The position numbers and the translations under genes were made by a program. The notes under the pieces were generated by a model. The model saw only the letters and a list, made by a program, of their open reading frames with translations. It was not told the DNA's origin and ran no database searches. From assembly GCA_025786725.1 (NCBI GenBank), contig JAHLTZ010000007.1, positions 496,001-560,000 of the forward strand: a DNA stretch of 64,000 nt, given 5' to 3'. The DNA is from Syncephalis fuscata (lineage: Eukaryota; Zoopagomycota; Zoopagomycetes; Zoopagales; Piptocephalidaceae). Shown here piece after piece: positions 8,970-47,667 of this stretch (position 1 is its first letter; each line of letters begins with the position of its first letter).

Positions 8970-10855
8970 CTATAATGGCGTGGCAGCCATCCAATAACAA
9001 GCGGTTCTTGAAGTAATACCACACAATTCAATATCATCATTATGCAGTTCAATGGGAATTTTATCTAAACGGAAATAAAAGGTGACAACAGCTAGAAATA
9101 GCTTTAGTTGAGCCATCGCTTGTCGCTGACCAAAGCACTGTCGATCGCCACCACCTGTAATTGTATATTATTAATATATTGAATTGCTAAATGGCAACCA
9201 GTATTTAAACTTACCAAATTGATAGGAGGCGTGCATGTAAGATTGGCGCGTTTCAGGTGTAATATTAAGCCAACGCTCTGGTCGGAATTCATTGGCATCA
9301 GGTCCCCAAATACGTGGATCGCGTTGTATGACGGCAATTGGGAAAAAGATATTTGCCTTGGCAGGGATTACAAAATCACCCGTATCAATGGGACGGGCTG
9401 AAGTGCGAGTGAAAGCTGGCGCTACACACGCCAAACGCATGCATTCCCGGTAGACGGCTTCGAGATAGGGTGCGGCTGTTGGTTGCATTTGATCAAATGT
9501 AATATATGGATCGCTGCCACCAGTCAGTCCAATAATTTCTGAGCGCAATCGCTGCTGAACTTGATGTTCGCCAGCCAAGAAATAAAGCATCCACTAATAA
9601 TATAGCCTGTTTAATGGCAATAATAAATAAACTAATACTACTTACACCTTGCGATGATGTGCTTGTCTCTACACCGGCCAACATAAATAGAAGAATCTCA
9701 TCGCATATTTCTTTATGGGTAAATGATTCGTCACTATCAAGCAATAATGCGGCAAGATTAGCCCGTTTAAATGCCTCCGATGTTGACAGTTCGTCATGAT
9801 CTATATTGATATTAAGTGCTAATTGACATTGAATATGCTCTTGGTGCAGCAAATCAACCTCCTTGGCAATAATGTCCAATGATTGACCGACCTGTCTTGA
9901 ATGACCAAATAGTCGAGTACGTAACGTTAACGAGATGGCTTCTTTGCCATTAGCATCACCTAGTACTCGAATAGCTTGTACAAGTTGTTGAATTCGTTTG
10001 ACTTGTTGTATATCCATTTGATGATCATCATCATTTAACAAAGCTTTATCATTATTATTATTATTGTCATCATCATCTAATAGTACTACATTGCGTCCAA
10101 ATAAAAAGCGTGTTGATAATTCAAAACCAAGACAGTCCAGATCATGTCGAAAGTCATAAGGAGAGCCATTTAGACGAGACGACCATCGTTTGACGAGTCG
10201 TTTCATGCTTTCTGCCATAAACGGGAATCCATCGCGTATACGACTATTGGCCATGACTGGTCGTAATGCGCGAATATGTCGTTTGTGTTCGTTGCCTATA
10301 ATAGAATACTATATTTAATTTAAATAAACTTATTGTTTCAATTATAATTACCGGTTAGTGCAACAAGCCCGTTGGGCATAAGCGAGGAAAATATAGAAAT
10401 GGTCCAAGAATTTTGTGTTAAGGCGCTGCGCTATTATTTACACTATGTCAGCTATTGCTAGTCTGTTTGTTACTCCATACACATACGTCTTTTATCAAAA
10501 GCTGTCGAATCAGTCTAATATCAGAAATAATAAAAACGCGCTGAAATCCAATAAAAATTTCATAAATATCGCCATATCTATCGTTTAACGCTTGAAATGC
10601 TCGATGAAGTGAGCCATACGAAAGTATGGTGTTACGGATATTGCCAAATATCAACTCAGGCTGCGGTCCTGGAAATCCTATAAACGAATGTTAGATAGGT
10701 TAGAATAAATAACACAAAAGGCAATTTACCCGATAGCTTGGTAAACCACCACTGCCGGATACAAGCACAGACTAGCCACAAGATGACACCAAACACTATA
10801 ATGTATTCCAGACTTAGTAAAAGTCTGTTTACGAACACTAAATTTAAAAACATTA
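8970..10855 (-). CDS. cytochrome P450 monooxygenase
   Basis: This is a heme-thiolate monooxygenase anchored in the ER membrane. The N-terminus from the ATG at 10855 has one hydrophobic anchor (YIIVFGVILWLVCACI), then a PGPQPELIFGN-like hinge. Helix C reads GNEHKRHIRALRPVM (about 10300-10250). The oxygen-binding helix I reads LLFMLAGVETSTSSQG (about 9695-9645), the ExxR of helix K is ECMR (about 9450), and the PERW region is NEFRPERWL (about 9275). The cysteine-ligand loop is split by an intron and reads FGGGDRQCFGQRQAM when joined (about 9210-9110). The stop is at 8972-8970. Four or five introns are present, including 9600-9655 and one near 10440-10490. The substrate cannot be told. The His-Lys-rich tract near 10070-10020 (poly-Asn/Asp) is an unusual low-complexity insert between helices. 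Confidence 0.9.
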
Positions 10856-27922: not shown

Positions 27923-30900
27923 TTAAACAAATAATCCGGTGGTAGTCGATGCTTCTACCGAATCTAATTCATCGAGCATTTTATCCATATCAGGTATCGT
28001 ATGATCATTCATAATCTCTGATATATCATCTGGTAGTTCAAATTCATCTGCTTCAGGGGTTAATTCATTAACTACCGTTAATTGACTCGTCGATAATCGA
28101 TCACCATGAGCGAGTAATTCTTCACTAAGAATACACTCATCATCGATAGCCGTATCTTCGGATACTGAAGTGAATACAGAAGAGGTTTGACGTCCATGAT
28201 GATGGTTATGATTGTTGTTGTTGTTGTTATTAATGGTTTCGGCATAGTCAAGACCACCGTTCATTGGACTATTTGATGCTTGAGTACAGTAGCGTAGACT
28301 TGATGGAATACAACTTGTATTGCCACTGGCCAATCCGGCACCACTTAGATTGGCATAGCTGTTTTTACGAGAGGCTACGGGCGATGTACGTTGATGATAG
28401 GCGAGTGGATTAGGGGCGGCAGTACTATTACTACGAGAACGACGTCCACGTAATTCAGCGGCCATTACCGAAAATACATCAGTAACTGGACTGTTCTCGG
28501 CACTAATAAAATTAAAGCTACCGGTTCGACTACGGCTTAAAATTGATCCATCGTTACCGCTTAGTGTAGAGAATGTACTAATATCGGCAGCTGCTGAAAA
28601 TGTACTAATATCGCCTACATCTAAACCATTATCTTCATCACCGGTATTCCATAGATCTTCGAAAATACCAAATGCTTGACTGCGTCGTTTATCCACAACA
28701 GCTTGGTTAATCTGGAATGAAGCGGCAAAGCTTTTGTCAAAGAATCGCTCCAACACTTCTTCAGATAAAATAACCGATCTTAATGAGGGCAGTGATAAGA
28801 AACGGACATCATCATGGTCTGGATCTTGCGTAGAGTTTTCATTGGCATGATTTAGAAATACGGCCACTGATCGAAGTGAAAATTCTTGTTGTTCAAATCG
28901 GAACATATATAAAAGACTTTCTGAAAAGTTAATAACATCTTGTTGGGTTAATTGACCATCTTGGTCGGTGTCGTGCATAGCATGGAATAGCTCAATACGG
29001 GACATTAGATCGCCTTTAATGACGGCACCCAATAGGCAAACAAGTTCTTGGAAGGACAATTCACCGGAATTTGCATGCGAGAATTGGTCGAATAGCCGTT
29101 TGGTAAAGTGATAGGTTGGTTTGGAGCGACGGCGTGTTCGTGTGGCATTCATACTGCGATTGGCCATGTCTAAATCTTCAACATCTTCTTTACCGCGACA
29201 CCAACGAGTAATGCTGGCTAAAAAGTCAAGGAATAGCGGATAGTCCATGGTAATTTCGTCTTCTTCTTCTTCACGTCGATAGAATAGAACTCTATGGTAG
29301 CAATCGTAGATTTGGTCGAGTTCGGGTCGTGAAAATCGAGCCGTATCAATTAGATTACGTACAACATTACGTTTGGTAAAGTCTTCAATGCTATGCACCA
29401 CTTTGGATTGTTGCGCCTTACGTAGCACTACAATAACTTCATCGTTAATGTGTAGGAAATCTTGAGTTGCCACTAGAATAAGTCGGTCGAATCCGGTAAT
29501 GGATCGTAAACGTGGATTGGTACTATTTGGATGAAGTAGCGTATTTAAAGAGGAAAAGTATTCTTTAATAATCTCGTTGAATTCCATATCGTCGCGTGCT
29601 TTACGTAGTTTTTCGCTATTGACCTTTAAAATGGCCAAACTATAAATTATTATAATGATTAATATCAACTAAAGAGTAATTAGTAGATAGTTACCTTATG
29701 TGGAATAGAATTTTGGGTCCTTCAATAAATAGTCGATCTAGAATACGAATAACAGATGCTAATGGCATTGCATTAATGAATAGACTAAGGAACCAAGGCA
29801 GTGTAAGTGTGGATATTTGAATATCTCGTGCATTAAGACGTCGCATTAAATCAGGCAAGTCTTTCTTGGCCAAGTCTTCAAAAATAGCCTGATCTAATAG
29901 AGCACCGTACATGCTAGTGGTATAATAACCAGGGCATATCTGTTCACAAAGAGTGGCCAAAGCCCAAAAAGCTTGTTCTTCACTCATATGACTAGATGAA
30001 TATATTAGTATATATATATATATACACCAATAGTTATATTTACTACACTTACATAAGGAGAACTGAAGCGACAATATTCATAGCTTGACAGTAGCCAAGT
30101 TCAGGATTGTGCCATGAATAGGCGGTAAGTACACGGCGTAGTCGCCCAATACCGTCGGATGACTGATAGGCTGGATATTCAGGCAATGAGCGATTAAGAT
30201 CCTTTTCAATTTCAGTTGTAGACATCGATACATTGGTATGGTTCTCTCGAAGTATATCACGATACCGATTTGGATAGGAGCAGCGATAGTAGATGGAACC
30301 ACAGCCAACTTCCCATATTTCACCTCGTAGTTGATTGGGTACACCGGTTTTAACTAGCTTTTGAAATTCTGGTAATTGTAATAAGGTCAAATTACGGCCA
30401 TGTAATTCATAATACATCTTCCATGCTGCTACTGTATTGGCATCGGCATAGCGGGCATCGTCGACTGGATAGCCAAATTGTTGGCCTAATCCAGCATTGG
30501 TATTACTATTGGCATGATCCTCGTCCTCATCTTCATCAAGTTGTTTAAATGAAAATGAGCTGCTATTGGGTGACATTGGAGGTGTAGCAGCGCTACCGCC
30601 AACGGCTTTTGTATCTGTACGAAGCATAGCTTCAGAAGAGCATGTATTTAGAAACGCTCTTAGTTTGGCTACATGTTGTACTTGAATTCGTAATTGATCG
30701 CGTAATGCCATACAGAACTGTTGACCTTCTCGGGCTGACCCTTCAAAAGCAACTACTACGCGTAGTTGATGCCAAGTAATAATAGCCACAGCCAGTGTAT
30801 GTTCAAAGTCATCTACTCGCTCTACACGACGCACCGTATAAAGAGGAATGACCCATTTGCATTCATGTGGCTTTTTTGAACCAAACGCCATATAAGTATT

Positions 30901-36659: not shown

Positions 36660-39600
36660 GTGGTCTAATATATACTAACCATGATTAATATAGAAAGTCA
36701 AGATGATGATCCAGATTTGAGGTTTAATGCGGCAGCCCGAGCATTTCGTCGTACATTCGATATACCCGATTCGGAAAGATTAGTTAATTGTAAGTTTAAT
36801 AACGTTAATTTATTAATAATAGCAATATTAATATATATATATATGTGTGTGTGTGTGTGTTTGTATATGTGTATATACAATAGACTATTCATGTGCTTAT
36901 GAAGGTGTTAATCAAGGATGGATGTATATTAGTGAATATTCACTCTGTTTCTACTCTTTTATTTTGGGTATAGAAACCAAATTACAAATTCTTTTACGTG
37001 ACGTTAAAGATGTTCGTAAAGAAAAATCAAAACGAGGTTTAGTACCTGATTCTATTGTATTAACTACACGAGAAGATAAAGAGGTAAGTGCTGATTATTA
37101 TAGTATTAATGTTAGTATTAATGTTAAATATTGTAATTACAGTTTTTCTTTTCTAATCTATTCCACCGAGAGAGTGTAAGTAGTAACAAGTAGATAAGAT
37201 AGTATACTAATGGAATATTTAGACTTTTGATATATTAATTCAACTGATTAATATTAATGCAGAACGTCTATTGCGTGGACATACAGGTAACTAGCTATAA
37301 TATAATATACAAATAGCCGATTAATAGACTGAATAATGTAGAGTCGGTTATACTATTTCACGATGATGAAGAAACTGCCAATTCATCGAGTGGACAGAAT
37401 AAACGGACATTACGTCAAGGATTAGAGGATAGAAAGCGTAATCTGACATTTCAACAACTATTCAACCTGCCTAACATTGAAAGAATTGTATCTGACTGCG
37501 ATGCTACAATACAGATAATGTTAGAACCATCGGTTGAGTTTCAAGGAAAGCTATATCTATCGGATCATTTTATAACATTCTATGCAACGGAACGAGATGC
37601 TTGTCGATGGGTACTTCCATTGTTTGCTATACGTAGAGTGGAGCGTGTGGCTTCACCACCCTATACTATTACACTAGCCATTACTAATTGGCATCAAATG
37701 ATGGTGGTTATTCGACTGAAGGTCACTTATCGACAGGTGATCAATTCTGTTCAGCCTTTAAGGAACAGTTGAAACGTCGTGGTCGTACTATGAAATCATT
37801 ACGACCCTTCCTGGAGACTTGCTATTCAGAATCATTATTGGCTGAACATACCGACCCACCATTGAATGGACTTGGTGTTGTACACGGATATCCTGATGAG
37901 AAGACATTAACTAACGCGGGTAAAAAGTAAGTAATAGTTAGTACTAACAACATTATAATAATGGATATCAATGGATAGGAGCAAGAATGCTGCTAAACTT
38001 GAATATTGGAAGAAATACTTGACGGGTAATATACTAGCAAATACTGTACTATTATATGACTAATCGAATGTTTAGAATATGGGCGTAACCTGACTACTAT
38101 TCGTCAAAGTTCTTTCTCCAAGCTTGTCCGTATTGGATTGCCTAATCAACTACGTGGTGAAATGTGGGAGTTGTGTTGTGGTGCCATGTTCCATCGTTGT
38201 ATGTATCCAAATCAATTTGAACAATTACTCAAAGACCACGAGGGTGTCATGTCGCTGTCGATCGAAGAGATTGAGAAGGATCTTAATCGGTAAGTAATAG
38301 GTTCGATCTATGGTTATATAGTAATGGTGTATACATATGTATGTATATAGATCATTGCCAGAATATCCAGCCTATCAATCATCTGAAGGTATTGAAACAT
38401 TAAGACGGGTACTAGTTGCCTATGCTTGGAAGAATCCAAAACTTGGCTACTGTCAAGCTATGAATATTGTAGTATCGGCACTTTTAATGTAAGCTATAGT
38501 TTAAGAATTAATAGTACAATATTATTCTAATGACCATCTAATGTATCTATTTAGTTATATGAGTGAAGAACAAGCATTCTGGACATTAAATGTTATTTGT
38601 GAACACTTACTACCTGGCTACTATAGGTATGTTTAGTGTAGTGTTGTTTATATTAAGTATTATATTAATATTTGTCCAATTTAGTACTTCTATGTATGGT
38701 GCTCTTTTGGATCAGGCAGTCTTCGAACGACTTGTACAGGAAACCATGCCAGTACTAGATGACTATTTCAGGCGTAAAGATATTCAAGTATCGGTAGCAT
38801 CGTTACCGTGGTTCCTTAGTCTATTTCTTAATTCAATGCCGTTAAGATTTGCTTTCCGTGTATTGGATTGCTTCTTTTTACAAGGACCTAGAATTCTATT
38901 TCAAGTGGGGTAAGTATATGCAAACTGGTTAATTAATTAATTGATAGCTAATTTAAACTATTTAATTTGTATTATTTAAATTAGTTTGGGTAAGTTATAT
39001 GGCTATTATTAATATTTACATGTTTACTAATATATTTGGTGATTAGCTTTGTTGAAGGTCAATGGTGAAGCTATTTTAGAAGCATCAGATGATGGCGCAT
39101 TCATTGCTATTTTCAAGGACTATTTCACGCGACTCGATGATCGTGTCTATCCAAATAGCAAAGATAGTAGAACACGTTCATTGACACAATTCCACCACTT
39201 GATGCGTATTGCATATCAAGACTTTTCTAATGTCACAAATGAATACGTTGTAGAGCTGCGTGGCATGTTACAATCGCAAGTGATACATGGCATTGAGTCA
39301 TTTACTAAACGTAGCTATCTACGTAATCTAAAAATAGAGAGTCGTCTAAGTAAAGAAGCGTTGGCAGCCGTTTATGATAAATATTATGGTATTATATTTT
39401 ATCGTGGTCAAGAAGGTGTCAACCAAGGAAGTTTAGACTATACAGGCTATGTAGAATTTTTAGGCTCAATGACTTGTTGGGGTTTACCACCTAAAGTAAA
39501 AGATGATGAAGAAGAAGAAGATGAAGAGGAGGAGGAGGAGGAGGAAGAAGAAGAAAAAGAAAAAAGAAAAGAAAATGTAGAGGATGTAGAAGATGTTACA

Positions 39601-40813
39601 AAAGAAACAGATCTAATAGTATTAAATGAAGATACAGAAAGTAATACAGTAAAGAAAATTCATCACAAACAGGTCTTTTAATAGATATTGGTAATAATGA
39701 GATAGAAGATGACAATGCGTCTGATGTACAATCATCCATGTTACCAACACCGAATATGGAATTGCCACTATTACCTACACCACCCATACCAGGTCGAGCC
39801 GGCTCTATATCACCACGTCCGGATCCTGCTCAATTGGCAGCAGCGATTGAGTTGACCGAGACACGTAGAGTGAGCCTGACAAAACGTTTATTCCGCGCAG
39901 CAACGACGGCCATTTCTCCAGATCCTACGGAACAGGCTGACTTTCCACAAGCTGCCGTGGCCATAGGAGAATTTTAGGCGGCGATCTATTAACACGTATT
40001 GACTACATCTTTCGATTGTATGATACAGATGGTGATAATCGAATTACACAAGATGAACTTGATGCGTTTATTGAAGAAATGTCCTACTTGACCGTTATGG
40101 TTATAGCAGGCATGAAAGAGGATGATAATCATGTATGGGCCGCATCATTACGCGAGAATGCTCGACGCTATGCGGATCCACTCCAATCGACGCCAGATGT
40201 CAATAGCACAGATACGGCAACGGCAGAAGCAACGGAGGAGAATGCCGAGGCTGCTGATGCCATTTGGTTATCATTACCATCCTTTAGAATGATTGTATTG
40301 GCCGAATCAGTATTGGAGCAGCTGTTTGAAGCGGATTTACCAGGCTCGTTTCATCTTGAACAGCAGCCACAAGCTTACAATGCTCGTCTTGGTCGAGAGA
40401 TCTTTAATGCGCTTTGGTCGGAAGGTACAAAATTGGCCGAAAACGTTGGTAAGCGTGTTACAGCACGTCGACAATCACATACACCTCGACGACCACGATC
40501 ATCGACTCATGGTTTAATTCAGCACGGTCTGAGTGGTGGTGGTAGTGCTAGTGCACCTGCAGCCACAACGCCCACAACCCCATTGGTCGATCGGTTACGT
40601 GCAACGACCAGCGAGGAAGCTAGTGGTCGGTTATCGCCCGCTGCTGCTTCCTTTAGTTCAGCCGCGGCCGAGACTGAGGAAGAATCGATATCGGTGGTTG
40701 ACGAGGAAGAGATAAGTGATGTTGATATGCTTGAAGAGGTAGATCGTCTACTTAACGAACTAGGCCATGGTTCAGATGATGATGATGATGAACCAGTAAA
40801 GAAGAGTAGCTAA
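36161..40813 (+). CDS. Rab GTPase-activating protein, GRAM-TBC-EF-hand, paralogue 2, with apparent frame breaks
   Basis: The gene is a diverged copy of 27923-32538 with the same domains in the same order, starting [20 protein letters not shown] at 36161. GRAM-like blocks are at about 36900-37160 and 37518-37720 ([18 protein letters not shown]). The TBC domain (about 38120-38910) keeps the arginine finger ([16 protein letters not shown], split by an intron) and the glutamine finger ([10 protein letters not shown]). The EF-hand loop near 40020 is canonical ([17 protein letters not shown]). Three places need a shift of one base to keep homology: about 37720, about 39655 (after a poly-Glu tract at 39505-39560) and about 39970. 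At the first, the alignment with paralogue 1 has equal length once one base is added. The other exons are open and well conserved, so this may be a working gene with assembly errors, or a young pseudogene. Confidence 0.75.
36621..36659. repeat. (TAA)n microsatellite in an intron
   Basis: About thirteen ATA/TAA units lie in an intron of Rab-GAP paralogue 2. Confidence 0.8.
36830..36861. repeat. (TA)n(TG)n microsatellite in an intron
   Basis: A TA run passes into a TG run inside an intron of Rab-GAP paralogue 2. It may form Z-DNA but has no visible role. Confidence 0.75.
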
Positions 40814-41223: not shown

Positions 41224-43681
41224 TTATGGGTTATCTGCATTTATAAATAAAAATATACATGTATATAATTAGTGTATAAGCCATCAATATACAATATTAC
41301 TTACTGACTATTGATATTAAGTTATTGATACACATGGTGCATAACATGTAATTAGTGAGTAATTAATCAATATAAAATGCTACTTACTGCCTATTAGTAT
41401 TAAGTTATCGATACACATGATGCATAACATGTGATTAGTGGGTTATCAATTAATATAAAATGCTACTTACGACCTATTAGTATTAAGTTATTGATACACA
41501 TGGTGCATAACATGTAATTAGTAAGTAATCAATTAATATATAATACCACTTACATCCTATTAATATTAAGTTGTTGGTAGATAGATTCCACAGTATATAA
41601 TTAGCACATGTTCTATTGATATACAGCTCAACTTACTGCCTATTAATATTAAGTTGTTGATGGATACATTAAATAGCATGTGATTAGTAAATAGCTAATT
41701 AGTATACAATATAACTTACTCCCTATTAATATTAAATTATTGATGAGCACAATACATGGTATATAATTAATGTATAGTCAGTTAATACACAATATCACTT
41801 ACTGCCTATTAATATTAAATAATTGGTACAATCAATAAATAGCATAGTTAATGTATAGTCAGTTAATATACAATATCACTTACAGACTATTAATATTAAA
41901 TAATTGATACAATCAGTAAATAGTATAGTTAATGTATAGTCAGTTAATATACAATACCACTTACGGACTATTAATATTAAACAATTGGTACAATCAATAA
42001 GTAGCATAGTTAATGTATAGTCGGTTAATATACAATATCACTTACAGACTATTAATATTAAATTATTGGTACAATTAGTAAATAGCATGGTTAATGTATA
42101 GTCAGTTAATATACAATATCACTTACGGTCTATTAATATTAAATTATTGATACAATCAGTAAATAGCATAGTTAATGTATAGTCAGTTAATATACAATAC
42201 CACTTACTTGCTATTAGTATTAAGTAGTTGGCGCAATTAGTAAATAGTATAGTTAATGTATAGTCAGTTAATATACAATACCACTTACGGTCTATTAATA
42301 TTAAACAATTGGTACAATCAATAAGTAGCATAGTTAATGTATAGTCGGTTAATATACAATATCACTTACAGACTATTAATATTAAATTATTGATACAATC
42401 AGTAAATAGCATAGTTAATGTATAGTCAGTTAATATACAATACCACTTACTTGCTATTAGTATTAAGTAATTGGCGCAATTAGTAAATAGTATAGTTAAT
42501 GTATAGTCGGTTAATATACAATACCACTTACGGTCTATTAATATTAAATTATTGATACAATCAGTAAATAGCATAGTTAATGTATAGTCAGTTAATATAC
42601 AATACCACTTACTTGCTATTAATATTAAACAATTGGTACAATTAGTAAATAGTATAGTTAATGTATAGTCGGTTAATATACAATACCACTTACGGTCTAT
42701 TAATATTAAATTATTGGTACAATCAGTAAATAGCATAGTTAATGTATAGTCAGTTAATATACAATACCACTTACTTGCTATTAATATTAAACAATTGGTA
42801 CAATCAGTAAATAGTATAGTTAATGTATAATCAGTTAATATACAATATCACTTACTCCCTATTATATCAAGTTGTTGATACGCACAATACATGGTATACA
42901 ATTAATTCATAAGTCAGCAATATACAATATCACTTACTATCTATTAGTATTAAGTTGTTGATATATATTATGCATAACACGTGGTTAGTACATAGTCCAC
43001 CAATATACAATGCTACTTACAGCCTATTATTATTAAGTTATTGATACACACGACGCATAATATATAATTAGCCAGCGTGCAATAAGTATACAATATAATT
43101 TACATTGGTCTAATATTGTCATTGATACATACAACACAATATATAATTAGTTAATACTCAACTAATATACAATACAACTTACCCACTATGGCATCAAATT
43201 GTTGATGGACATAATACATGATATATGATTAATTTATAAGTTAGCATATACAATATCACTTACCGCCTATTGTTATTAAGTCATTGATACACATAGCGCA
43301 TAGCATGCAATTAGTGGGTTATCAACTAATATACAATATAACTTACAGCTATCTAATATTAAGGTGTCAATTGATACAGTACATGACATATAATTAGTGT
43401 ATGCTTTATTGGTATATAATATAACTTACTAACTATTAGTATTAAGTTGTTGATATACATAGTGCATGGATATAATTAATGAGTCATTAACTAATATACA
43501 GTACAACTTACAATCTAATAGTATCATTAGTTAGCAATACTATTAATAAGCAGATACTATGGCATATCTATTGTTATTGCAACATACCACGACGAACTAA
43601 GGCTGGTTTAGCATCCACTATGGCTGTACTGGCCACAAGAGCCACGACAATGGTGCAAACAACGGCAATGGAAAGCTTCAT
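41224..43681 (-). CDS. secreted peptide gene built from 3-nt and 6-nt micro-exons
   Basis: Exon 1 (43681-43588) encodes a signal peptide (MKLSIAVVCTIVVALVAS, then TAIVDA) and KPALVRR, ending one base into a codon at a GTATGT donor. Twenty-eight candidate exons follow, 26 of 3 nt and 2 of 6 nt, each between TAG and GTAAGT (once GTAAAT). Introns are 73-80 nt. Joined in the phase of exon 1 they give about 30 codons with no stop. Four cysteines appear as C-x3-C-x14-C-x3-C directly after the dibasic RR, which could be a Kex2-type site. Using the CAG acceptor at 41235-41236 the product ends RCRINNP* at 41224. Phase 0 is also stop-free and gives a Thr/Ser/Gln/Ala-rich chain; phase 2 is closed. An alternative last exon may extend the gene to 40975. 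A TATA-like TTTAAATA lies 137 nt upstream (43818-43825). The role is unknown; a secreted processed peptide is inference. Confidence 0.6.
41305..43514 (-). repeat. tandem array of intron plus micro-exon units, about 81 bp each
   Basis: Each unit is one intron plus one tiny exon. The exons, plus-strand coordinates in transcription order, are 43512-43514, 43430-43432, 43347-43352 (6 nt), 43264-43266, 43183-43185, 43104-43109 (6 nt), 43021-43023, 42938-42940, 42856-42858, then every 81 bp from 42775-42777 to 41803-41805 (13 units), and 41720-41722, 41637-41639, 41554-41556, 41471-41473, 41388-41390, 41305-41307. The central units are nearly identical and differ mainly in the exon triplet (CAA, ACC, TCT, TCC). 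The outer units have diverged strongly in their introns yet keep the donor, a CTAAT/TTAAC branch-like block about 40 nt from the 3' end, and the TAG acceptor. Intron lengths are not held to a multiple of three, whereas exon lengths always are. Confidence 0.85.
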
Positions 43682-44057: not shown

Positions 44058-44189
44058 TTTTTTATTATACGGTTTAACTATTTGCTAAAAGCAAGGTATT
44101 GTTTAACTTTGTAAAAGCAATAGTGATATTTTTGCCGCCATTTCTACCGATTCAGTCCTCAATATCTGCATGCATACTAAACAGCACAC
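44058..44189. repeat. direct repeat, copy 1 of 2
   Basis: This segment matches 44290-44421 over about 130 bases, with roughly one difference in six. The best shared block is CATTTCTACCGATTCAGTCC. The two copies are 232 bp apart. No terminal inverted repeats or open frames suggest a mobile element, so it looks like a local tandem duplication. Confidence 0.75.
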
Positions 44190-44289
44190 AACCTGCCCGG
44201 TCTTTACTTCAATCTGTTAGTCATTTGCATGAGTACTGTAACGGTGTTCATAACCCAGTACATATGGTAAAAATAGACACATTAACCTG

Positions 44290-44421
44290 TTTTTTATTAC
44301 ACGGTCTAACTATTTGGTAAAAGCAAGTATATTGTTTGGTTTTGTAAAAAAGATAATGATGTCTTTGCTGCCATTTCTACCGATTCAGTCCTCAATGTCT
44401 GTATGCATACAGAATAGCACA
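44290..44421. repeat. direct repeat, copy 2 of 2
   Basis: Second copy of the segment at 44058-44189, with the same CATTTCTACCGATTCAGTCC block at its centre. Confidence 0.75.
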
Positions 44422-45654
44422 TAAAACTGCTGCAAAAACAAGTTTATCAAACTGGTATTTTATACAGGTTTTTACTGCTATACATAGGTCAGTTGTAATT
44501 TTAAATTATAAAGTATATTGATTGGTACATGCATGCATTTCATTCGACACTATGCCTATTGTTATGGGGCAATCATTGCTTTGAATTTACAAATGCATTA
44601 CATTCAAGCATATCATGCTATATGTTGTGCAACTACCATCATTCAAATGACGGCCAATCTAAATTACCTGAAATTGATTATACAATAAGTACTGTTTGTA
44701 GCATGATGCATCACAGCATTTTGCGCAATGGAGCATTTCAACATGTCACTTTCGTCATCAGTTTTCAGCTGTAAACTAGATTGTATCGACTAAATTACAC
44801 GCAATACAATATGTAGACACTAGAATAAACACAATAGAAAGTTCTGCTTAAATATTACAAATTTTAATGCATAATGTAAATGGGTTTGCATATCAATGGG
44901 TAATTATCCAAGGTCTAACTACTGCTTAAATTTCTGAAACCAATTCTGACAAGTCAAGCAATATGGAATATAGAAGAACAAGCCAAAGCAGAAACCAATA
45001 GAAAACAATTGACAGCTCAAAGGTCTACTGGTTTAACATATAGCAAATCGCTATAGTTAGGCTAAGCTGGACCGTGTTTATCAAAAAGTTAATTGCTACT
45101 GATGCAGCTAGAGAAGCAGTAATGTTAAACCGAGATAATGCACAGAAAACAGAGAGATGTAAATAAAATTGAATTGGCAAGTTTTAGTAGTCAAATAACT
45201 TATTATTGTCACTATACTTTATAATTATGGTTGTTTGTGCGGATAAATATTTACAATCACATTGTGACTTCTTATATACTTACATTTACACGACCACCAA
45301 CTAAGCCAACTATTATAAAGCTTAATCTAACTAGTTATTAGAGTAAACAGCTAATATTATACATTATTGCAATAATAGAAAAACAGATTAATTTCATTTA
45401 TTGACCATTAATAAAAGCTGTATAGCTATATATTAAAGTAAAACAAAACATTAGACTGAGTGAGTAATACTTACATGGTTAAATCATTTTACTTTGACTC
45501 TCACATTTTTATTTACTCATTTCACTGCCTTTTCCTATTGTTATCTTATTGTTCTATTCAATACTATATTACATGATAATGTTGAATATAAAAATATAAA
45601 TAGCATGCGTATTTGAACATCAATAAAAAACACTATTCAATCCCTAGTCTTTAT

Positions 45655-46689: not shown

Positions 46690-47667
46690 ATGAAGTTATA
46701 TCAACAACAAGCAGCACTAGTGGCCTATATGCTGGCAGCACTGGTTGCTCCATCACCACTGGCCAATGCTATTACCCTTCCACTACCTGATTTTGTTGCT
46801 AATGGCGTACGCAAAGGCGAAGCAACCTTTTATGACTCGGACGGCAGCGGTCATTGCTCTTTGGGTCCACGATCTGACGGTGTATTTGGTGCCATGACTT
46901 CAAAGTTATGGTCAATGGCTGCTGTGTGTGGTATTTGTGCTGAAATATCACATAAAGATAAAAAGGTTGTCGTGCCCATTGTAGACGAGTGTCCAGGTTG
47001 TTCCGACGGCAGTATTGATTTATCACGTAATGCTTTCCGGGCCCTTGCTTCGGAAAGTGCTGGTCGTATTGAAATTAGCTGGACAGTTGTGCCATGTCCC
47101 GTACAAGGTACCCTTCGTTATCGCTATAAGCCCGATGCCAATGCACAGTACCTTGCCGTACAATTGCTTAATTATGCAGTACCGGTTCGTTCGGTTGAGT
47201 GTCGTACGGCGGGTAGCGGCACTTGGCAAATGCTGCAACGTTCTGTCGATAACTACTTTACCGGCACTACACCAGGTAATGCCGGTAGTGCTGGCCTCGA
47301 CTTCCGTGTGACGCCGTATGGTGGATCGGCCGTTGAAGATACGGCTATATCATTTAGCCCAGGTCAAACGATTTCTGGCAAGCAAAGCTTAGGCAGTATC
47401 AGTGTGGTCAGAGGCAGCGACGGTCAAACACATGTAGCTTTTAATACATCGAATGGCAAGGGTGTTTCTGCTACTATTGGTTCGAATGGTGTTGATGTTG
47501 ATTTGAACAACATTAGCATTGAATCACTTGCCAACTCCATCAAATCAAGCAACTCTACCGATACAGCCGAGCAGAAAACGGCCAGCAAAAATTCAAGTAA
47601 TCCATCTTTAACTATCTCTGTTACATGGCTAGCCAGCTTGACAGCTATCTACCTACTTTTACAATAA
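46690..47667 (+). CDS. expansin-like / DPBB secreted protein with probable GPI anchor
   Basis: The intronless gene encodes 325 residues. A signal peptide (to about PLANA, residue 27) is followed by an RlpA-like double-psi beta barrel: GEATFYDSDGSGHCSLG (about 40-55), AAVCGICAEI and VVPIVDECPGCSDGSIDLS (about 95-113), the last holding the Asp-Glu-Cys-Pro-Gly-Cys signature. A C-terminal CBM63-like beta domain follows (QLLNYAVPVRSVECRTAGSG, about 160-179). The last 90 residues are Ser/Gly/Asn-rich and end in a hydrophobic tail (SVTWLASLTAIYLLLQ), as expected for GPI anchoring to the plasma membrane or cell wall. Expansin-like proteins of fungi loosen polysaccharide networks without hydrolysis; the substrate is not evident here. 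The GPI signal is less common in secreted loosenins and suggests that it acts on the fungus's own wall. Confidence 0.88.
   Translation: MKLYQQQAALVAYMLAALVAPSPLANAITLPLPDFVANGVRKGEATFYDSDGSGHCSLGPRSDGVFGAMTSKLWSMAAVCGICAEISHKDKKVVVPIVDECPGCSDGSIDLSRNAFRALASESAGRIEISWTVVPCPVQGTLRYRYKPDANAQYLAVQLLNYAVPVRSVECRTAGSGTWQMLQRSVDNYFTGTTPGNAGSAGLDFRVTPYGGSAVEDTAISFSPGQTISGKQSLGSISVVRGSDGQTHVAFNTSNGKGVSATIGSNGVDVDLNNISIESLANSIKSSNSTDTAEQKTASKNSSNPSLTISVTWLASLTAIYLLLQ

Follow-up and report, generated by a model that had tools for sequence, protein, structure and literature searches.

In the genome of Syncephalis fuscata (Zoopagomycota, Zoopagales), a signal-peptide exon on the minus strand of the stretch studied is followed by a regular series of 3- and 6-nt blocks, each set between an apparent splice acceptor and donor. 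The locus raises the question of whether these blocks are exons that write a peptide almost codon by codon or repeats within a single intron. We analyzed it within a 64,000-nt stretch of DNA (the window) and across the gene family to which it belongs. The predicted gene runs from 43681 to 41224 (-), with the ATG at 43681 and an in-frame stop codon ending exactly at 41224, the boundary that an earlier note had drawn. It is composed of a 94-nt signal-peptide exon, 28 micro-exons, and a terminal exon, separated by 29 introns that are all in phase 1. Its features are as follows.

43588..43681 (-): exon 1, with ATG, signal peptide, and pro-region MKLSIAVVCTIVVALVASTAIVDAKPALVRR, closing in phase 1 on the first base of the following codon; RR processing site and signal peptide assigned by eye
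43515..43587 (-): intron 1, 73 nt, GTATGT...TAG
43512..43514 (-): micro-exon 1, ATT
43430..43432 (-): micro-exon 2, TTA
43347..43352 (-): micro-exon 3, ATAGCT (6 nt)
43264..43266 (-): micro-exon 4, GCG
43183..43185 (-): micro-exon 5, TGG
43104..43109 (-): micro-exon 6, ACCAAT (6 nt), followed by the sole GTAAAT donor
43021..43023 (-): micro-exon 7, GCT
42938..42940 (-): micro-exon 8, ATA
42856..42858 (-): micro-exon 9, GGA
42775..42777 (-): micro-exon 10, CAA
42694..42696 (-): micro-exon 11, ACC
42613..42615 (-): micro-exon 12, CAA
42532..42534 (-): micro-exon 13, ACC
42451..42453 (-): micro-exon 14, CAA
42370..42372 (-): micro-exon 15, TCT
42289..42291 (-): micro-exon 16, ACC
42208..42210 (-): micro-exon 17, CAA
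42127..42129 (-): micro-exon 18, ACC
42046..42048 (-): micro-exon 19, TCT
41965..41967 (-): micro-exon 20, TCC
41884..41886 (-): micro-exon 21, TCT
41803..41805 (-): micro-exon 22, GCA
41720..41722 (-): micro-exon 23, GGA
41637..41639 (-): micro-exon 24, GCA
41554..41556 (-): micro-exon 25, GAT
41471..41473 (-): micro-exon 26, GTC
41388..41390 (-): micro-exon 27, GCA
41305..41307 (-): micro-exon 28, TCA
41235..41304 (-): last intron, 70 nt, GTAAGT...TTTATTTATAAATGCAG
41224..41234 (-): coding part of the terminal exon, with two closing bases of a codon, then AAC CCA TAA
below 41224 (-): 3' UTR; uninterrupted paralogues can be read with a similar one
41699..42953 (-): most homogeneous stretch of the array, 81-bp period with 86% matches, encoding the NPNP-type stretch

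These coordinates bear out the 28 blocks that the earlier note had proposed, 26 of 3 nt and two of 6 nt. All 28 internal exons are in phase 1-1, and together they make up 90 of the 195 coding nucleotides and nearly the whole mature peptide. Skipping any one of them leaves the frame intact. The 29 introns measure 78 nt (14 introns), 80 nt (9), 73 nt (2), 79 nt (2), 77 nt (1), and 70 nt (1); the lengths of 73, 77, 78, 79, and 80 nt noted before were all found, but the final intron, at 70 nt, falls outside that list. The description of every block as lying between a TAG acceptor and a GTAAGT donor holds for the acceptors of all 28 micro-exons (the terminal acceptor is CAG) but not for every donor: 27 are GTAAGT, exon 1 has GTATGT, and the micro-exon ACCAAT has GTAAAT. 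Two ordinary-looking intron candidates elsewhere in the window carry similar signals, at 9214 (-) (GTAAGT...CAG, 60 nt) and 30052 (-) (GTAAGT...TAG, 61 nt), in a list of 14 candidates of which some are implausible. A higher-order period of 162 bp spans 41286-43070, and in the core of the array CAA and ACC blocks alternate to give NPNP, a homogeneity as expected if units were duplicated recently.

When joined by the predicted splicing, the 195-nt coding sequence gives a 64-residue precursor, MKLSIAVVCTIVVALVASTAIVDAKPALVRR-DFNSCVDQCYRTNPNPIYPNLFLCRSRCRINNP*. Its N terminus, MKLSIAVVCTIVVALVASTA, is hydrophobic by eye, and the predicted mature part, DFNSCVDQCYRTNPNPIYPNLFLCRSRCRINNP, has two CxxxC pairs and no CYC motif. 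Among 20,000 shuffled exon orders of this array, 75% were free of stops, 3.8% had at least four cysteines, and 0.065% combined no stop with at least four cysteines and two CxxxC pairs. The absence of stops is by itself unremarkable in so short a chain, and for the same reason the shuffle test is weaker for the window gene alone.

Several features surround the gene. A DPBB_1 protein that looks secreted (46690-47667 [+]; Pfam E value, 4.5e-9), expansin-like by eye and with a hydrophobic N terminus, is encoded about 3 kb upstream on the opposite strand. Two sets of long ORFs at 27923-29668 (-) and 39049-40813 (+) have similar N termini (EF-hand-like by eye), and the latter set and the array gene are arranged tail to tail, with the stop codon of the array gene about 400 nt away. 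On the upstream side of the array gene, at about 44058-44424, a duplicated segment of about 135 bp occupies -743..-609 and -510..-377 relative to the ATG; this segment is also common to other family members.

A genome search showed that the window gene is not a single oddity but belongs to a large family. The signal exon gave 150 scored matches among 335 candidates, all at an E value of 5.2e-8 or better. We examined 116 of the 150, including the window gene, and by a strict automatic rule sorted the loci into 70 arrays, 25 uninterrupted open reading frames (at least four cysteines in the mature part), and 21 others; the 70 arrays are a lower bound because the last group includes missed arrays (C2, with 41 units, and L053, with 31). 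Fifteen arrays could be parsed as far as a terminal acceptor, and these contain from 13 units (L042 and L049) to 41 (C2), with 28 in the window gene; L036 has 48 units, and its terminal acceptor was not found. Single long introns of 488 to 494 nt interrupt the series of about 78 nt in L042 (intron 2), L038 (intron 9), and L039 (intron 19). The insert in L042 is unlike the repeat units, and no tRNA genes were found in the three loci.

Uninterrupted paralogues resemble the arrays in their signal exon, in most cases in the VRR junction too, and in a similar 3' UTR reading, and their mature part is rich in cysteines. In the 25 uninterrupted members it has four to eight cysteines, often as C-x2/3-C-x3-C ... 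C-x3-C by eye. A profile of 12 uninterrupted family members, searched against 5.8 billion proteins, returned 13 at an E value of ≤0.01, all from S. fuscata, in a search that reaches only relatives sharing short words and can miss highly divergent families. The window gene is not among these 13 public proteins. The public gene models P0004 to P0008 lack the micro-exons, and that of P0006 runs into an intron unit by eye. A Pfam scan of five family proteins gave no match at an E value of ≤0.1 for P0001, P0003, P0010, and P0012, and for P0002 only Gloverin (E value, 0.051; 13.9 bits versus a cut-off of 25). The predicted structure of P0003 has two helices in the mature part at fair confidence, and no fold match was found. 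Cysteine-stabilized helical hairpin peptides are a class in which two antiparallel helices are joined by two CxxxC pairs. Two loci with similar signal exons encode a lysine-rich 111-residue form without cysteines (L110/P0010) and an eight-cysteine form (L116/P0012); they differ in the mature part, and the signal exon is therefore common to more than one kind of product.

The spacing that defines the array recurs throughout the genome. With up to one mismatch, TTAATATTAATAG-N3-GTAAGT occurred at 1798 sites, the same signals at other gaps occurred 7 times (N2), once (N4), and once (N6), and the N3 pattern read backwards did not occur at all. With up to three mismatches there were 3257 matches versus 89 for the backwards pattern, and the genome therefore probably holds some thousands of such blocks. 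Separate scoring of acceptors and donors gave 288 pairs no more than 40 nt apart, of which 286 had a gap of exactly 3 nt, in a set that contains the window gene twice. The pattern in the window is not due to chance.

The earlier note had been struck by exon lengths in multiples of three alongside variable introns, and this holds across the family. Parsing of 29 genes gave 759 micro-exons, 752 of them multiples of 3 nt, with a parser that has no length term and whose splice profiles were trained on 3- and 6-nt sites, and the 748 introns (57 to 85 nt) were not confined to multiples of three (286/182/280). The seven exceptions fall in L032 (one), L041 (one), L058 (one), C1p (two), and L036 (two, with an in-frame alternative), and some arrays may therefore be decayed. 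Of the 70 arrays called by the automatic rule, 69 have the exon 1 donor in phase 1; in the remaining one, L127, exon 1 seems to have lost 1 nt. L032, L041, L058, C1p, and L127 are likely decayed copies or have unusual splice sites. Family-wide, the length of the blocks is conserved and their letters are not: 625 three-nucleotide exons (near-copies L031, L037, L044, L049, and C1p left out) have per-position entropies of 1.86, 1.87, and 1.96 bits out of a maximum of 2, with 55 of 64 trinucleotides present. Neither the AG of the acceptor nor the first base of the donor varies, as the parser requires, and the remaining donor bases have entropies of 0.10 to 0.34 bits. Of the 30 sites that trained the second acceptor profile, for 6-nt exons such as that at 43104-43109, 26 end in TATTAG, as if the acceptor had shifted 3 nt upstream within TATTAATAG, by which an exon of one codon could become one of two codons in a single step.

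Joined in order, the blocks of the arrays read nearly free of stops in the frame set by exon 1. We shuffled exon order within arrays, which keeps composition and alters only order. In 22 deduplicated arrays, phase 1 gave 1 stop and 91 cysteines in 539 codons, and 5000 shuffles gave a mean of 26.4 stops (minimum, 13) and 44.5 cysteines (maximum, 60). The other phases had 6 stops in 568 codons (phase 0) and 46 in 539 (phase 2). The set leaves out L048, L044, L037, L031, L049, and C1p as duplicate, near-duplicate, or damaged; with these six kept there were 2 stops in 630 codons, in L042 and its near-copy L049, versus a shuffled mean of 27.9 and a minimum of 15 (2000 shuffles).

The uninterrupted paralogues served as natural "cDNAs." The 35 joined micro-exons of L056 encode AKDPAKCNQCMSQCYGNYPYPSQAINDCPKRCAKQC, and the uninterrupted public protein P0003 reads GKDPAKLCDKCIDKCHKNYPYPSLATRYCLGYCRKECDT, with 19 of 37 positions identical and 25 of 37 positive. 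The joined blocks and the P0003 gene share an exact 16-base run, TATCCTTATCCTAGTC, which in L056 is broken by introns. In a DNA-level comparison of 20 arrays with 17 uninterrupted genes, L056 scored 48 against the P0003 gene and L036 scored 47 against the uninterrupted L070, versus a maximum of 35 in 4000 shuffles. The other 18 arrays, including the window gene, did not surpass the shuffle maximum; as many as 140 of 200 shuffles of the window array scored as well as the array itself. A profile of 13 uninterrupted mature peptides scored at least 10 bits in 9 of 28 arrays (7 loci once C1m, L044, and L048 are counted once) and in none of 560 shuffles, and at least 5 bits in 15 of 28 arrays versus 16 of 560 shuffles. 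Thus, 19 arrays lie below 10 bits and 13 below 5 bits, many of them represented by partial sequences in this test. The window product scored 9.3, and the best shuffle scored 7.1.

Divergence between paralogues follows the same anatomy. In nine pairs, differences affected 147 of 503 micro-exon positions (29%), 512 of 5327 mid-intron positions (9.6%), 21 of 1444 splice-signal positions (1.5%, a conservation partly favored by the parser, which picks good sites), and 8 of 761 positions in exon 1 (1.1%). Micro-exons thus changed about three times faster than mid-introns, and an earlier count of 12 pairs gave 134 of 523 (25.6%) versus 945 of 11233 (8.4%). The contrast between micro-exons and introns was significant at 0.05 in seven of the nine pairs (not in L044/C1m or L042/L049), and the pooled P value of 3.7e-31 is not strict because pairs share members. 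There were no micro-exon differences in 3 of the 12 pairs of the earlier count and 1 of the 9 pairs of the later one. The faster change of the micro-exons fits diversifying selection on the peptide; counts for pN/pS were too low to decide the matter.

Spacing, stops and cysteines in the exon 1 frame, divergence, and the two paralogue "cDNAs" argue for the micro-exon reading that the earlier note had favored. Judging by these sequence features, we think it very probable that the window holds an intact gene whose 28 micro-exons are spliced into the mRNA of a secreted peptide and whose array changes by duplication and loss of units. The spliceosome would take out 29 short phase 1 introns and join exon 1, the micro-exons, and the terminal exon; exon 1 would supply the signal peptide and pro-region (..VRR), and the mature cysteine-rich peptide would be written nearly one residue per exon. 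Recognizing such small exons in a long series is mechanistically demanding. Intron definition could be enough, as each intron comes with signals of its own. Since only 3 nt separate each 5' splice site from the 3' splice site before it, adjacent introns could hardly be recognized simultaneously, and serial removal, in which each step makes the exon end for the next, would be the simplest model.

The array may have arisen, and may still change in length, as the unit of about 81 nt (intron plus 3 nt) is duplicated in tandem or lost. Because of this composition, each event would add or remove one residue with the frame unbroken, and because all introns are in phase 1, gain, loss, or skipping of units keeps the frame. 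Each intron-plus-codon unit probably accounts for a single residue gained, lost, or altered in a secreted peptide that evolves fast; the exposed codon letters would diverge fast, with the splice signals and signal peptide held. The genus Syncephalis is parasitic on other fungi, and from this life style and the rate of evolution we would guess that the peptide acts in attack on, or defense against, other fungi, whether hosts or competitors.

A broader reading, which we hold tentatively and a little short of evenly balanced, is that dozens of secreted-peptide genes with mature domains built of tandem intron-plus-codon units vary codon by codon through unequal exchange, skipping, and write-back of cDNA. 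Homology among introns would drive the unequal exchange, inserting or deleting single residues; fast codon change and optional skipping would multiply the variants; and cDNA recombination would write spliced copies back as uninterrupted genes.

Alternatives concern how the blocks are used. That real exons are often skipped, one gene yielding many in-frame peptides, would be a refinement of our preferred explanation. All 28 window micro-exons can be skipped in frame, and schistosome micro-exon genes, as described in PMC4350168, use alternative splicing of small symmetrical exons. However, skipping would alter junction codons, and the full chain has a cysteine framework resembling that of the uninterrupted paralogues, which hints at selection on the full-length product; we consider frequent skipping less likely than not. 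Far less probable is that the uninterrupted copies alone are normally expressed and the arrays are a reservoir from which new ones arise by rare transcription, splicing, and cDNA recombination: three uninterrupted copies (L045 to L047) have most of 1.5 kb of upstream sequence in common with array genes, at about 70 to 91% identity, and this likeness and that of the 3' UTR make conversion between array and uninterrupted gene in place plausible, but the arrays would still have to be spliced at some time, and most of the parsed arrays have kept their frame and splice sites. The alternative raised in the earlier note, a single 2.4-kb intron filled by a minisatellite of exon-intron border copies, can draw on the tandem repetition of the region and on the skipping of all blocks, which keeps the frame and gives a product ending VRRDNP* (MKLS...VRRDNP), but we give it almost no credence since it predicts neither the 3-nt spacing, nor a lack of stops and a doubling of cysteines that depend on exon order, nor the agreement with uninterrupted paralogues that two arrays show once their blocks are joined, nor blocks changing three times faster than mid-introns beside nearly frozen splice sites.

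Spliced as we propose, the window gene would have relatives in kind. Schistosome micro-exon genes, described in PMC10526429 and PMC4350168, encode secreted proteins with a constant signal peptide and a fast-evolving mature part in many tiny symmetrical exons; they have 10 to 20 exons, mostly of 15 bp (6 to 81 bp in the text, 3 to 81 bp in the abstract), and introns of 0.1 to 5 kb. The window gene likewise has most of its mature coding sequence in tiny symmetrical exons; its signal peptide is putative, assigned from the hydrophobic N terminus by eye. It differs in its 28 consecutive 3- or 6-nt exons and similar 70- to 80-nt introns in tandem repeat, and in belonging to a fungus, with cysteine-rich products and uninterrupted paralogues in the family. 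The earlier note had named these genes as the nearest known case with larger exons; they remain the nearest kind, but since their exons reach 6 bp (3 bp in the abstract of PMC10526429), the difference in size is smaller than supposed.

Aphid bicycle genes, as described in PMC9168663, form large families of divergent putative effectors that carry cysteine motifs in pairs. Their exons are many and small and almost all share one phase, with internal exons starting at codon position 2, as in the window gene. They average about 17 exons, and a "megacycle" form has more than 100 microexons of about 60 nt each for about 2000 residues; compared by that description, the window gene differs in its one-codon exons and tandem intron repeat. 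Bicycle proteins are marked by two CYC motifs; the window product has two CxxxC pairs and no CYC, and in the profile search, with its reach limited to relatives sharing short words, homologues of its family were found only in S. fuscata, which speaks against membership. Spliceosomes can join exons of 1 to 3 nt, as described for Fusarium CYP621A, Arabidopsis APC11, Drosophila homothorax, and RPS24 (PMC12940212, PMC7392893, and PMC12686416); in the CYP621A study, a homologue without introns also served to mark the length (PMC12940212). Unlike these ordinary genes with one or a few tiny exons, the window gene would write a whole domain in this way. Our literature search found no description of a gene family in which an entire domain is encoded by one-codon exons set in a tandem intron repeat. 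We therefore regard the gene as an extreme form of the micro-exon gene, apparently of independent origin.

If spliced as predicted, with 29 introns for a 64-residue precursor, it would be among the most finely divided genes known to us. It would then offer a test bed for the limits of exon size in a series and for serial splicing without exon definition, and its intron repeats could be tested as a source of mutations that insert or delete single residues. Array genes are nearly invisible to standard annotation, with 13 public proteins versus 150 scored signal exons, which suggests that similar repertoires of secreted peptides may be missed in other parasites. Micro-exon genes stand at the parasite-host interface in schistosomes and aphids, and a third, fungal, case would make convergence testable.
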